From: Spirochaetota bacterium
GTDB taxonomy: Bacteria > Spirochaetota > Spirochaetia > Treponematales > UBA12059
Length of the DNA: 37,605 bases
Direction: 5' to 3'
Assembly (NCBI GenBank): GCA_018816345.1
Contig: JAHIWG010000130.1
Location: 1-37,605 of the forward strand
Each line of letters opens with the position of its first letter. Positions within the stretch are counted from its first letter, which is position 1. This document shows positions 18,491 through 23,538 of the stretch, piece after piece. Both the position numbers and the translations under genes were made by a program. The notes beneath the pieces are model-generated. The model did no database searches, was not told the origin of the DNA, and worked only from the letters and a program-made list of their open reading frames with translations.

Positions 18491-18520
18491 GCGCCGGAGG
18501 GCCCTCTCCGGCGCATTTTT
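18491..18520 (+). terminator. rho-independent terminator
   Basis: GCGCCGGAG (18491-18499) pairs with CTCCGGCGC (18506-18514) over a 6-nt loop, followed by ATTTTT. This is the clearest intrinsic terminator in the window and ends the VF530 transcript. Confidence 0.9.
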
Positions 18521-18623: not shown

Positions 18624-19619
18624 ATGAAGAGGACTCTAGCGGTAGTGCTGGCGTTGGTGGCTCTAGCGGGCTCGGCGTACGCCGCGCCCAAATCCAAGGT
18701 GCGGATAGCCTTGATAATCGAATCGACGGTGGACGACAAGGGCTGGGGACAGGCCATGCACGACGCCATAGATTCGGTTCAGAAGAAGTACGGGGCGTCC
18801 CTCGTGGAGTATAACTACAGCGAGAAGATGAAGCCCGTCGACGCCGGCTCGGCGGCCAGGCAATACGCCTCCCGCGGCTTCGACATCATCATCGCCCACG
18901 GGGCCCAGTTCAAGAACCTCATCCTCGAGCTGTCCGAGGAATTCCCGAAGACCACCTTCGCCTTCGGCACTAACGCCGACGTTGGCCCCAAGAACGTGTT
19001 CACCTACATGCCCATGAGCGAGGAGACCGGTTACATTAACGGCGTCATAGCCGGCATGGTGACCAAGTCCAATATCATCGGCGTAGTAGGCCCCGTGGAC
19101 GCCGGCGACTCCGCCCGCTATAACCGCGGCTTCTGGCTAGGCGTCAAGTCGGTCAACTCCAAGGCCGAGATCAAGGTGGCCCATACCGGTTCCTTCGCCG
19201 ATTACGTCAAGGCCGCGGAGCTCGCCCATACCCACATCAAGGCGGGCGCGGACGTGCTCACCGGGGCGGCCCAGCAGGCCACGGGCGGCCTCCGCGCCGT
19301 CGCGGAGTACAAGGATAAGCAGATATGGTGGCTCGGCCAGGATACCCTGCAGATCGCCATGCCCGAGGGCTTCAAGGTCATAGCCGCCGCAAGCTACGAC
19401 TACGCCCCCGTCATAGAGGCGATGATCGATAAGCGCCAAGCGGGCACGCTAGGCGGCGAGAACATCCCGCTGACCTTCAAGAACGGCGGCTTCGTGTTCA
19501 AGTACAACGACAAGGTAGGCTCCGTCCTGACCGCGGCCATCCGGAAGGCCGCCGACAAGGCCCGCGCCGATATCACGGCTCAGAAGCTCAAGCTCGACTG
19601 GCAGGCGATCAAGTACTGA
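18624..19619 (+). CDS. BMP/PnrA-family nucleoside-binding protein
   Basis: A 331-residue exported binding protein. The signal peptide MKRTLAVVLALVALAGSAYA is followed by APKSKVRIALI; there is no lipobox cysteine, unlike treponemal PnrA, so it is probably soluble in the periplasm. The BMP fold is marked by ESTVDDKGWGQAMHDA, the hinge segment FDIIIAHGAQFKN, MSEETGYINGVIAGM and IIGVVGPVDAGDSARYNRGF. The family binds purine nucleosides in the best-studied cases, and some members carry other ligands. AGGAGG lies 7 bp before the ATG. The ATPase and two permeases follow, but an unusual 199-bp gap with a palindromic element separates them from this gene. Confidence 0.92.
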   Translation: MKRTLAVVLALVALAGSAYAAPKSKVRIALIIESTVDDKGWGQAMHDAIDSVQKKYGASLVEYNYSEKMKPVDAGSAARQYASRGFDIIIAHGAQFKNLILELSEEFPKTTFAFGTNADVGPKNVFTYMPMSEETGYINGVIAGMVTKSNIIGVVGPVDAGDSARYNRGFWLGVKSVNSKAEIKVAHTGSFADYVKAAELAHTHIKAGADVLTGAAQQATGGLRAVAEYKDKQIWWLGQDTLQIAMPEGFKVIAAASYDYAPVIEAMIDKRQAGTLGGENIPLTFKNGGFVFKYNDKVGSVLTAAIRKAADKARADITAQKLKLDWQAIKY

Positions 19620-19628
19620 CCCGCCTCT

Positions 19629-19644
19629 AGGCAAAAGCCTTTTT
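19629..19644 (+). terminator. weak attenuator-like hairpin
   Basis: AGGC-AAAA-GCCT followed by TTTT begins 10 bp after the binding-protein stop. The 4-bp stem is too short for a firm terminator. Partial termination here would favour binding protein over membrane components, a common arrangement in ABC operons. Confidence 0.35.
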
Positions 19645-19650
19645 GACGAT

Positions 19651-19785
19651 TTAGCCACGGAGGCGCGGAGACACGGAGAAGAGAGAGAGATCAAGGAAGG
19701 TAGATAGAGTAAGGATATTACTCGTTCCTTCTTCTCTCTCTATTCCTTAGCTCCCGGCCTGCGCGCCTCCGTGCCTCCGTGGTTC
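19651..19785. repeat. palindromic MITE-like element
   Basis: About 135 bp form one imperfect palindrome. The left outer arm CCACGGAGGCGCGGAG (19655-19670) matches the complement of the right outer arm (19767-19782) at 15 of 16 bases. Further in, GAGAGAGAGA (19681-19690) and AAGGAAGG face a CTTCTCTCTC tract and TTCCTT in mirrored order. The centre is AT-rich (about 19709-19722). The CCACGGAGGC motif resembles dispersed palindromic repeats seen in many bacterial genomes. No coding capacity. Confidence 0.75.
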
Positions 19786-19818
19786 AATATCCCTATTACT
19801 TACACCAAGGAGCTCGCG

Positions 19819-21351
19819 ATGGGCCATGAACCTATACGGAGCCTCGAGCTTCGAGGCATCACGAAGCGCTTCCCCGGCATCCTTGCCTGCGACCATATAG
19901 ACCTCTCGGTGGGGGAGCACTCCGTCAGGGCCCTCGTCGGCGAGAACGGGGCCGGCAAGACGACGCTGATGAACATCCTCATGGGCCTGTATCAGCCCGA
20001 CGAGGGCCGCATCCTGATCAACGGGCGCGACGTCAGGTTCCGCTCGCCTAACGACGCCTTCGACCACGGCATAGGCATGGTACACCAGCACTTCATGCTG
20101 GTGCAGAACATGACGGTCGCCGAGAACGTCGCCCTTGGCATGAAGTCGTCCCATCGGTCGTTCAGGCTCGACATAGCCGCCGTCAGGAAACGCATCCTGG
20201 AGGTCTCGGAGCGGCACGAGCTCCCGGTCAACCCGGACGCGCTGGTATGGCAGCTCTCGGTCGGGGAGCAGCAGCGGGTGGAGCTGGTGAAGACCCTGTG
20301 CCTGGGCGCGCGGTTCCTGATCCTGGACGAGCCGACCTCGGCGCTTACGCCGCAGGAGACCGACGAGCTCATCTCCCTCCTCCAGAAGATGTCGAGCGAG
20401 CTGTCGATAGTCTTCATAAGCCACAAGCTGCACGAGGTGAAGGCGCTATCCGATACCGTGTCGATACTGCGCAGGGGGAAGATAGTCTTCGAGGGACGCA
20501 CGGAGAACCACTCTCCCGCGGACCTCGCGGCCCTTATGACCGGCCACGAGGTGGAGCTGCCGCGCGTCGACTCCGGCTCCGCCGCGCGCGGCGGGGCCCC
20601 GGGCCTCCTGTCGATCCGGGAGCTCCGGGTGAAGGGCGACCGTGGCAACCTGGCCCTGGACGGCGTGAGCCTCGAGATAGCGCCGGGCGAGATCGTAGGC
20701 CTGGCCGGCGTCTCCGGAAACGGGCAGCGCGAGTTGGCCGAGGCCCTGAACGGGCTCAGGCCGGTGGAATCGGGCTCCATACGCCTCGACGGCGCGGAGC
20801 TGGCGGGGGGCTCGGCCGGCGACGTGATACGGGAGGGCATGGGCTACATCCCCGAGGACCGTAACACCGAGGGCATCGTGCCGTCGTTCTCCGTCAAGGA
20901 GAACCTCGTCCTCAAGGATATAGGCGGCAAGGAGTGGAGCGCCGGCGGTTTCCTGCGCCTCGGGGCCATAGCCGATAACGCGAAGGCGCTCCGCGAGCGC
21001 TTCGATATCCGCTGCCCGTCGACCGACACCGCGGCGGGCTCCCTGTCCGGCGGCAACATCCAGAAGGTGATCCTCGCGCGGGAGCTAGCGCGCGGGCCTA
21101 AGGCGCTGGTCGCCGTGTATCCGACGCGCGGCCTGGACATGGGCGCCGAGGAATTCATCCATAAGCAACTACTGGCGCGCCGTTCAGAGGGCGTAGCCAT
21201 CCTCCTCATCTCCGAGGAACTGGAGGAGATCATGAACCTGTCCGACCGCATCGCGGTGATATACAAGGGCGCGATACTCAAGGTCGTACCGGGCAAGGAC
21301 GCCACCAAGCGCTCGCTGGGCCTCCTCATGGCTGGAGTCGCCGATGAATAG
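19819..21351 (+). CDS. BMP-type nucleoside ABC transporter, double ATPase
   Basis: A 510-residue protein with two fused ABC domains, as in RbsA/NupA-type importers. Domain 1 is complete: Walker A GENGAGKT (about 41-48), signature LSVGEQQ and Walker B FLILDEPTSAL. Domain 2 has the degenerate P-loop GVSGNGQRE in place of GxxGxGKS, the intact signature LSGGNIQK, and VAVYPTRGLDMG instead of the standard Walker B. This asymmetric pattern is normal for the family, so domain 1 probably does the main hydrolysis. The ATG at 19819 was chosen because AAGGAG (19807-19812) precedes it by 6 bp; an in-frame ATG at 19771 lies within the palindromic element. The 3' end overlaps the first permease gene by 8 bp. 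Confidence 0.95.
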   Translation: MGHEPIRSLELRGITKRFPGILACDHIDLSVGEHSVRALVGENGAGKTTLMNILMGLYQPDEGRILINGRDVRFRSPNDAFDHGIGMVHQHFMLVQNMTVAENVALGMKSSHRSFRLDIAAVRKRILEVSERHELPVNPDALVWQLSVGEQQRVELVKTLCLGARFLILDEPTSALTPQETDELISLLQKMSSELSIVFISHKLHEVKALSDTVSILRRGKIVFEGRTENHSPADLAALMTGHEVELPRVDSGSAARGGAPGLLSIRELRVKGDRGNLALDGVSLEIAPGEIVGLAGVSGNGQRELAEALNGLRPVESGSIRLDGAELAGGSAGDVIREGMGYIPEDRNTEGIVPSFSVKENLVLKDIGGKEWSAGGFLRLGAIADNAKALRERFDIRCPSTDTAAGSLSGGNIQKVILARELARGPKALVAVYPTRGLDMGAEEFIHKQLLARRSEGVAILLISEELEEIMNLSDRIAVIYKGAILKVVPGKDATKRSLGLLMAGVADE

Positions 21352-22591
21352 GACGGGGAAGCTGGCCTACAACGCCGCCGTGGTGATAGCCGCGGCCGCC
21401 GCGGCCATGGGCATCGGCGCTATAGTCCTCGCCGCCGTCGGCGCGGATATTTTCAAGGCCTACGCGGTCATACTGACCGAGCCCTTGAAGGACATGATAG
21501 GCCTGACGGAGATAGTGGTCAGGGCCGTGCCCCTGTCGCTTATAGCCATGGGCATAGCCATCGCGTTCAGGAGCGGGATACTGAACATCGGGGCGGAAGG
21601 CCAGATGCTCATGGGCATACTCGCCTCCAGCGCTACGGCGATAGCCTGCGCGTCCCTTCCCAAGCCCGTGCTCATCCCCTTGGCTATACTCGCCGGCGCG
21701 GCCGGGGGAGCGGCCTGGGGCGGCATAGCGGGCGCGCTCAAGGCGCGGCTGGGCGTCAACGAGATACTTTCTACGGTGATGCTCAACTATATAGCCGCCC
21801 AGTTCTATACTTTCCTGCTCCGGGGACCGCTCATGGATCCCGAGGAGCTGCTGACCGGCTCGGGAACCCCCCAGACCGTCCGCATGCCGAGGAGCGCGTG
21901 GCTCGACCGCCTGCTTCCCGGCACGAGGCTCCATTCCGGCGTCTTCATAGCGCTGGGCCTGGCCGTCGTCGTGTTCCTGCTCCTGTGGAGGACGTCTACG
22001 GGCTTCAGGATGCGCGCCGCCGGGGCGGAGGCCAAGGCGGCCCGGTACGCCGGCGTCAAGGTACAGCGCTACCTCGTGCTAGCCATGCTCCTGTCAGGGG
22101 CCTTCGCGGGCATGGCGGGGGCCGTCGAGATACTGGGCGTGCATAGGCGCGCCATAGAGGGCGTGTCGGGAGGCTACGGCTTTACCGGCATCGTAGTCGC
22201 GCTGTTCGGAGGCCTGCACCCGGCCGGCATCATCCCCGCCTCGCTATTCTTCGGGCTCCTGCTCCTGGGCGCCGATATGACCCAGCGGCTGGCCGACGTG
22301 CCGGCCAATATGGTGCTGGTCCTCCAGGGAGCCATAATCCTCGCGATAGTCTCGGCGAGGCAGTTCATGAGCAATCCCTACGTCCAGGACAAGGTGGCGC
22401 GCGCCTGCGCGAAGATGTTCAGGCGTCCCCCGCCGCCCGCGCCTCCAGGGTCGATCGAGGCCTGTCCCGACCCGTCCGACTCGGTGGATCCCTGCCTCGT
22501 CGGCGAGGACTCCGCCGTCGGAGATAGTTCCGCCGTCGGAGATAATCCTGCCGCCGGCGAGGGCTCCGTAAAGAAAAGGGGAACGCGATGA
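21344..22591 (+). CDS. BMP-type nucleoside ABC transporter permease 1
   Basis: A 415-residue inner-membrane protein of the BPD_transp_2 (ribose/branched-chain amino acid/nucleoside) family with about ten helices. Landmarks are IGAEGQMLMGILASSAT near residue 83, LKARLGVNEILSTVMLNYIA near 130 and GGYGFTGIVVALFGGLHPAGII near 275. These match the longer of the two permeases in BMP operons. The last ~60 residues are a hydrophilic extension absent from typical members: a Pro-rich stretch followed by Asp/Ser/Gly repeats of the EDSAVGDSSAVGDNPAAGE kind, ending KKRGTR. This tail would lie in the cytosol. The gene overlaps the ATPase gene upstream by 8 bp and the second permease downstream by 4 bp (ATGA). 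Confidence 0.94.
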   Translation: MNRTGKLAYNAAVVIAAAAAAMGIGAIVLAAVGADIFKAYAVILTEPLKDMIGLTEIVVRAVPLSLIAMGIAIAFRSGILNIGAEGQMLMGILASSATAIACASLPKPVLIPLAILAGAAGGAAWGGIAGALKARLGVNEILSTVMLNYIAAQFYTFLLRGPLMDPEELLTGSGTPQTVRMPRSAWLDRLLPGTRLHSGVFIALGLAVVVFLLLWRTSTGFRMRAAGAEAKAARYAGVKVQRYLVLAMLLSGAFAGMAGAVEILGVHRRAIEGVSGGYGFTGIVVALFGGLHPAGIIPASLFFGLLLLGADMTQRLADVPANMVLVLQGAIILAIVSARQFMSNPYVQDKVARACAKMFRRPPPPAPPGSIEACPDPSDSVDPCLVGEDSAVGDSSAVGDNPAAGEGSVKKRGTR

Positions 22592-23538
22592 ACGCCGGAT
22601 CGTTCGTGCTCAACATCCTGATCCTCGGCGTGCCGTTCTCGGTCGCCCTCCTGCTCGCGGCTCTCGGCGAGACTATCAACCAGCGCGCCGGTATATTCAA
22701 CCTCGGATGCGAGGGAATCATGGCCATGGGCGCCTTCGTGGCCTTCCTGCCGCCGTTCTTCCTCGCCGGCACGCCTCTGGCCGGAAGCGCCAACCTCATA
22801 GGCCTGGCCCTGGCTATCGGCGTCGGGGCTCTCCTGGGCGTGCTGTTCGCCCTCGTCGTGGTGACCTTCAGGGCGCCGCAGGGCATAGCGGGCATAGGCC
22901 TGCAGATGCTCGGTTGGGGGGCGGCCGGGACCTTGTTCAGGCATTACGTGGGCGGCGTCACGGGGGTCCCGGGCATACAGCCGGTGCCCGTTCCGGGGCT
23001 CTCCAGGATCCCGATCCTGGGTAAGGTGCTATTCAACCATAATCCGCTCGTATATATCGCGTTCCTCCTCGTGCCGGTCTTCTGGTACCTGCTATTCAAG
23101 ACGCCGTGGGGCCTGAAGGTCAGGGCCGTGGGCACCTATCCCCGCGCCGCCGACTCGCTGGGCATACGGGTCTCCAGGGTCAGGTACCAGGCGCTGGCCC
23201 TTGGCGGCGCCATGGCGGGGCTCGCGGGCGCCTACCTGAGCCTCGCCCAGGCCAAGATGTTCGCCGACGACCTCATCGCGGGCCGGGGCTTCATAGCCGT
23301 CGCCCTCGTGTACTTCGGCCGGTGGAACCCCGTGGGCGTGATGGGCGGAGCCCTGCTCTTTAGCCTGGCGCAGGCGTTGCAGCTGTCTATCCAGGTCGCC
23401 GGCATTAACTTCCCGTACGAGTTCGCGGTGATGCTGCCCTACGTCCTCGTGATAGTTGTGCTCGCCCTGGTACGCAAGGCTAAGATGGTAGGCCCGACCG
23501 AGCTAGGGAAGCCGTTCGACAGGGAGCAGAGGATCTAA
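22588..23538 (+). CDS. BMP-type nucleoside ABC transporter permease 2
   Basis: A 316-residue inner-membrane protein, the shorter permease partner. Family blocks are LLLAALGETINQRAGIFNLGCEGIM (residues 18-42), YPRAADSLGIRVSRVRYQALALGGAMAGLAGAYLS (about 185-219) and RGFIAVALVYFGRWNPVGVM (about 233-252). With permease 1 it forms the heterodimeric channel. Its start overlaps the previous stop, and a long GC hairpin follows the stop, so it closes the operon. Codon use and GC match the flanking genes and nothing is truncated. Nucleoside import is the family-based expectation; the exact ligand depends on the binding protein. Confidence 0.94.
   Translation: MNAGSFVLNILILGVPFSVALLLAALGETINQRAGIFNLGCEGIMAMGAFVAFLPPFFLAGTPLAGSANLIGLALAIGVGALLGVLFALVVVTFRAPQGIAGIGLQMLGWGAAGTLFRHYVGGVTGVPGIQPVPVPGLSRIPILGKVLFNHNPLVYIAFLLVPVFWYLLFKTPWGLKVRAVGTYPRAADSLGIRVSRVRYQALALGGAMAGLAGAYLSLAQAKMFADDLIAGRGFIAVALVYFGRWNPVGVMGGALLFSLAQALQLSIQVAGINFPYEFAVMLPYVLVIVVLALVRKAKMVGPTELGKPFDREQRI

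Follow-up and report, generated by a model that had tools for sequence, protein, structure and literature searches.

A palindrome in a bmp-ABC transporter operon of a Spirochaetota bacterium: a gene-less element very probably belonging to a dispersed, mobile-type family that also bears GxxExxY genes

Among the described intergenic palindromes of bacteria, GTAG and CGTC REPs are reported, in the part of the source available, to have stems of 5-13 bp with the tag at the foot of the hairpin (PMC3733652). For ERIC, an effect on the stability of neighbouring transcripts is described, and for ERIC, RPE and YPAL the available sections of the same source give no known mobilising gene and treat transposase-driven transposition as hypothetical only (PMC2229807). 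Hairpins within operons have been assigned a role in Escherichia coli, where, by the sections available, malE and four further ABC operons give their binding-protein mRNA extra stability, and stable hairpins free of a U-tract occur at 26 of 34 boundaries that have the stable gene on their 5' side (PMC5927463).

The window analysed here, a stretch of 37,605 nucleotides from a Spirochaetota bacterium, is contig C122 of a draft genome of 3.8 Mb in 175 contigs (96.4% complete; G000, hereafter the source genome). Inside a transporter operon of the window, between the bmp gene and the ABC ATPase gene (Table 1), an imperfect palindrome of 132 bases was confirmed at 19653-19784. An earlier note, made from the letters of this DNA, had placed a palindrome of about 135 bp at 19651-19785 and was correct to within a few bases; its count of 15 matching bases out of 16 in the outer arms was obtained again (19655-19670 against 19767-19782), its mirrored inner GA/CT tracts were recovered at 19678-19698 and 19725-19745 with 86% complementarity, and the overlaps of 4-8 bp that it gave for the downstream transporter genes were measured at 8 and 4 bp. 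The arms are built of tandem 8-bp units, here CACGGAG/CACAGAG, and comparison of 19 copies from the source genome gave an outer consensus ahead of the arm of approximately RGAATTTAG. The bmp-ATPase gap measures 199 bp, given an ATPase start at the ATG at 19819. RNA of 19640-19800 folded at -70.3 kcal/mol, compared with -45.5 ± 3.9 kcal/mol in 200 dinucleotide shuffles (z -6.4), none of which (0/200) folded as low. Across the whole window, no Rfam match exceeded the gathering score, and the tRNA/tmRNA search found none. Upstream of bmp, a terminator-like hairpin followed by a T-run was noted at 18491-18514, which could attenuate transcription in the bmp leader or mark where a short transcript ends.

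A DNA search of the source genome returned more copies of the window palindrome. A covariance model, R1, was constructed from 15 of the genome's own copies with 24 arm pairs, L010 and L065 being left out of the alignment and L062:994-1105 added. In the arms, 86.9% of the cells paired, compared with 81.2% in shuffles, and both this percentage and the arm covariation score were above 500 of 500 shuffles; the measures counting pairs and pair types were not above the shuffles (500 shuffles). With both strands merged, R1 matched at least 27 distinct places in the source genome. The search scored 150 of 594 candidates, and R1 copy numbers are therefore lower bounds. One palindrome lies nested within another (C89; L067 1030-1264). 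When the 27 places were taken together with the coding copy described below (28 copies), 22 had the 3' end of an adjacent gene no more than 40 bp away under a longest-ORF rule; C136a, C15 and C75b were also found at gene 3' ends when the sequence was read directly, and C100a (L075:1412-1545), C43 and C175 gave no clear fit to this placement.

Table 1 Coordinates of the palindrome, its parts and the surrounding operon genes in the window (R1, covariance model of the palindrome family)
Feature	Position	Strand	Basis or remark
bmp, first gene of the operon	18624..19619	+	PnrA-like binding-protein family, PF02608
AT-rich left outer flank	19645..19654		
Gene-less palindromic element	19653..19784		R1 match: 96.2 bits (+), 75.4 bits (-)
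Left arm, three 8-bp units CCACGGAG-GCGCGGAG-ACACGGAG	19655..19678	+	CRCNNAG type; sequence
Inner purine-rich/pyrimidine-rich mirror tracts and central hairpin loop	19678..19745		
Right arm, inverted copy of the left arm	19759..19782	-	15/16 outer bases matching
ABC transporter ATPase	19819..21351	+	ABC_tran PF00005, two stretches
Permease	21344..22591	+	PF02653; 8 bp overlap with the ATPase gene
Second permease	22588..23538	+	PF02653; 4 bp overlap

The proposal of a dispersed MITE-like repeat, which a unique element or a lack of dispersed copies would have spoken against, was borne out by these at least 27 places and by element-free sites in relatives. As in a MITE, the window element is dispersed, non-coding and bounded by inverted terminal repeats; element-free sites in relatives are provided by other copies of the family, and a coding relative with the same ends lies at C100:16307-16784. 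No target-site duplication was visible around 19 copies of the source genome, the search giving two shared words of 6 bp where, by our own estimate, about one is expected by chance. Many extragenic palindrome copies near gene 3' ends could also point to a repeat of REP/REPIN type, mobilised by a tyrosine transposase (RAYT, Y1_Tnp), and 32 of 58 order genomes have Y1_Tnp genes. This origin is nevertheless extremely improbable: no Y1_Tnp match was obtained in G000, G003 or G016, all of which carry R1 copies, neither a GTAG nor a CGTC tag is present, and the arms comprise 24 pairs against stems of 5-13 bp in REPs. RAYT mobilisation was rejected, with the reservation that 0 Y1_Tnp matches in a draft (G000, 96.4% complete) are not proof of absence.

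The coding relative, a palindrome of about 480 bp in the source genome, holds a frame of 124 codons that encodes a GxxExxY protein; the existence of this coding form with a nuclease-fold gene had been missed in the earlier note. The gene is a clear member of TIGR04256 (GxxExxY; 138.5 bits against a cut-off of 35) and of PF13366 (PDDEXK_3; 134.5 bits against a cut-off of 22) and is the only PF13366 match in the source genome. Across the family, the coding form measures about 410-650 bp and consists of the same arms, with 2-4 tandem CRCNNAG units, around one GxxExxY gene of about 120 aa. PF13366 was present in 53 of 146 genomes of the order. For a sample of 30 loci from the order, spans of 300 bp upstream and downstream of the GxxExxY gene were compared, and in 22 of them the best flanking inverted repeat lay beyond the 99% point set by 220 shifted controls. 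A scan of named genomes from many phyla retained the best 80 of at least 565 candidates encoding a relative, for which reason this set samples proteins that closely resemble the query; 73 of the 80 loci were used, seven being without enough flank, and in 40 of the 73 an inverted repeat exceeded the 99% point of 1139 controls. The double unit CRCNNAG-N1-2-CRCNNAG stood in the correct orientation on both sides of the gene at 32/73 named loci, compared with 2/764 shifted positions, and on at least one side at 54/73, compared with 32/764 (Fisher p below 1e-34 for the motif against shifted positions, loci and shifts not being independent). Double units in the wrong orientation were found on both sides at 2/73 named loci. 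For the order sample, the motif was present on both sides at 9/30 loci and on at least one side at 14/30; neither side carried it at 16/30 order loci and 19/73 named loci.

GxxExxY loci without CRCNNAG units often carry other periodic inverted arms, of ACAGGAT, ACGGATT and AAAGAT types, and the arm type may therefore follow the protein subfamily. Such other inverted arms, with periodic units of about 8-9 nt, were observed at L128, L136, L145, L131, L147, L150 and L126. Genes of PF05635 (IVP) were tried as another cargo of CRCNNAG arms and rejected, the motif being present at 0 of 19 loci. Two GxxExxY palindromes were seen in a Planctomycetota genome (L228 1209-1721 and 2361-2900), about 1.7 kb apart at most. 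In several family genomes a radical SAM gene resembling kamA (named by eye) lies near the GxxExxY gene (L061 1507-3367; L287, L293, L298), with GxxExxY seemingly now on one side and now on the other, a pattern suggestive of short-range moves or of a preferred region.

Coding and gene-less copies were found to go together. R1 recovered gene-less palindromes in 28 of 40 genomes chosen from the 80 named loci, L184-L186 being left out as members of the source's own order. The largest number of matches in one genome was up to 73, in a Geobacteraceae genome; match counts for the order and for the named genomes include both strands. Within the order, R1 was present in 20 of 58 genomes, and PF13366 exceeded its cut-off in 14 of these 20 and in 7 of the 38 others (Fisher p 0.0002, the genomes being related and G026 counted by partial matches; 13 of 20 and p 0.001 if G026 is removed). 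Six of the 20 (G007, G015, G016, G025, G034 and G041) gave no PF13366 match. When the best gene-less arms were scored against GxxExxY flanks for 28 genomes, the mean was 32.2 within a genome and 21.3 against the others, and 0 of 20,000 permutations reached the own-genome mean; the own genome alone was best in 10 of the 28 and was tied or beaten in 18. Unusual arms are common to the coding and gene-less copies of one genome, e.g., in G154, G146 and G169. From these sequence comparisons it appears close to certain that the window element belongs to a GxxExxY-bearing family and is a palindrome of the mobile type.

The protein was examined by alignment and structure prediction. Residues E21, D61, E71 and K73 were invariant in the alignment of 28 of 30 order proteins and in that of 58 named proteins, drawn from 76 that were free of stops (4 of 80 contained one). 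The AlphaFold model (pLDDT 97, pTM 0.89) has a PD-(D/E)XK fold. Foldseek gave no match to the PDB below an E-value of 0.001, the best being SSO0001 (1.4e-3), which we take to be Cas4. VIA-align placed 99 residues on SSO0001 (Z 10.1, rmsd 3.6) and 86 on an Hjc resolvase (Z 7.2, rmsd 3.4), and gave Z 8.1 for a restriction-like protein of Spirosoma. The PD-(D/E)XK-like core is common to the GxxExxY model, the archaeal Hjc resolvases and SSO0001, a likeness of fold that does not imply a substrate. Sequence searches with the protein returned no relative from the PDB and no match in PHROGs or PADLOC. As modelled, GxxExxY is a nuclease fold in which the E...D...ExK residues are kept, and thus a predicted nuclease.

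That GxxExxY drives the spread of the elements is the best single reading of these sequences, and one that we hold with slightly more belief than doubt. The nuclease would recognise the arms, whether as a hairpin, as a cruciform or as a periodic duplex site, and would cut at the arms or at the target; host repair or replication could then copy coding and gene-less palindromes to new sites, usually directly downstream of a stop codon. GxxExxY might instead be cargo, or a selfish nuclease gene landing in pre-existing palindromes that spread otherwise, by another enzyme or by replication slippage together with template switching. Palindromes in genomes that gave no PF13366 match (G007, G015, G016 and others) would fit such an origin; we know of no transposase motif in GxxExxY, and template switching could keep palindromic arms matched. 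We consider it unlikely, however, as the arms of coding copies vary from genome to genome together with those of gene-less copies, across phyla, and as the gene is enclosed by correctly oriented arms. Moreover, a recognised GxxExxY frame is present in most single palindromes of 400-560 bp, and none was seen to contain another known gene, in a sample of loci chosen for GxxExxY and with a family assignment that covers GxxExxY frames only.

Relatives were compared at three sites. The flgB-flgC junction is short and element-free in G007, G005, G002, G017, G020 and others, and holds palindromes in G000 and G003, of the same genus, and in G019 and G021, of another genus. In the hslU-flgB-flgC run of the source genome, two palindromes flank flgB (L062 993-1768; genes named by eye). 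The GxxExxY site of the source genome is occupied by the coding form in G000, G003 and G005, by a shortened version of it in G002 and by a gene-less palindrome in G017; G007 has no palindrome there. At the bmp-ATPase junction, an element lies at the same point, with differing arms, in G000, G006, G002 and G001, all of one genus; G003 carries an unrelated hairpin, the sequence in G007 is different or has decayed, and in other genera there are unrelated hairpins or a short gap. The earlier note had suggested a search of orthologous operons for an empty site; element-free sites were found for other copies of the family, and at the window site relatives have other sequence. Three congeners have an element at this position too, which makes the window insertion an old one for the genus and not a recent one. 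The insertion would be ancestral in part of the genus, its arms having changed between species with pairing kept. The corresponding gap of G002 (L096) holds a near-perfect short palindrome (z -6.5) where the window element sits, with pairing arms and a short middle, as if template switching corrects palindromes.

Concerning the operon, we judge the chances about even that the window copy stabilises the bmp mRNA. As with malE, a stable hairpin free of a T-run follows the binding-protein gene. If transcribed, the window copy would form this hairpin after bmp and could act as a 3' barrier to exonucleases, like the malE-malF hairpin, whereby the bmp mRNA would outlive the ATPase-permease part. This reading is reasonable because of the hairpins at orthologous junctions and the precedent of the E. 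coli ABC operons. When 13 orthologous bmp-ATPase gaps were folded, nine had z <= -2.5; weaker hairpins were found in L093, L098 and L109 and none in L102. By eye, the hairpins of other genera are non-homologous to the element, and GC-rich relatives may have hairpins at many operon junctions, which would weaken the comparison. In the source genome, a second bmp locus on C75 has a copy at the junction of bmp and an ATPase-like gene (ATPase identified by eye); five other bmp regions (L351-L355) gave no R1 match.

At the bmp-ATPase junction, a strong GC-rich hairpin past a stop codon could also act as an intrinsic terminator or attenuator. This is very unlikely, given that no T-run follows the stem, that the terminator scan does not list the palindrome, and that the terminator/promoter scan gave no + strand promoter-like site suited to driving the genes downstream. 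An insertion at this junction could also have been tolerated without having any function in the operon, a serious possibility, though one we lean against. About 26 other copies lie at unrelated junctions, and most copies in the source genome stand right after stop codons, where harm is least, as would be expected of it. Against it, pairing arms persist at the same point in G000, G006, G002 and G001 despite arm differences, other genera carry unrelated hairpins at this very junction, and the second bmp locus on C75 likewise has its copy between bmp and the ATPase gene.

Taken as a whole, the best explanation, a gene-less member of the CRCNNAG family that was spread by GxxExxY and forms a bmp-stabilising hairpin, is in our view probable. 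A wider reading is held tentatively, with a little more doubt than belief: an undescribed class of mobile DNA, found in bacteria and at least one archaeal MAG, may have GxxExxY proteins as its mobility enzymes, with hosts reusing its hairpins to stabilise mRNA inside operons, the present nucleoside transporter operon among them. In that class, a single PD-(D/E)XK nuclease of about 120 aa would recognise periodic CRCNNAG arms in hairpin or cruciform form and would spread its own gene and non-coding palindromes without a classical transposase. If GxxExxY does move the elements, it would be a mobility enzyme of very small size and distinct from the classical families of transposases. For a widespread protein family that lacked an explanation, a concrete genetic context is gained, and for a widespread intergenic palindrome, unnamed as far as we found, a candidate partner. 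Unrelated hairpins in other genera occupy the position that a mobile palindrome has in this ABC operon, which makes the operon a clear case in which to ask whether mobile DNA was co-opted to adjust the amount of binding protein relative to channel. No paper linking GxxExxY, PF13366 or TIGR04256 to palindromes was found in a search outside which most subscription journals and supplements lay; the arm sequences, searched as words, were not found in this literature, supplements excluded, and the profile-database records examined give neither a function nor a genetic context for the GxxExxY family.

Several described systems resemble the window family in part. The Geobacter multicopy sequences likewise comprise intergenic palindromic and repeat families, for which the main-text descriptions available mention neither CRCNNAG arms nor a GxxExxY link (PMC2700814, PMC2996986). 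Two Geobacteraceae genomes were among the richest in R1 matches of the 40 named genomes, and some Geobacter repeat families may be the same thing as the R1 palindromes. ERIC, RPE and YPAL are, like the window element, intergenic palindromes of roughly 100-170 bp, as far as the available sections describe them (PMC2229807). The window family differs from them in having a coding form and in spanning phyla, and no target-site duplication was seen in it. The pairing of REP/REPIN with RAYT also joins short multicopy extragenic palindromes to a coding element with matching ends. Unlike REPs, the window family has CRCNNAG arms of 24 bp and no GTAG/CGTC stems of 5-13 bp, and the gene linked to it belongs to the PD-(D/E)XK nuclease superfamily and is not a Y1 transposase. 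Some REP/REPIN elements stabilise the upstream mRNA, as in malE-malF, which is the role proposed here for the window element.
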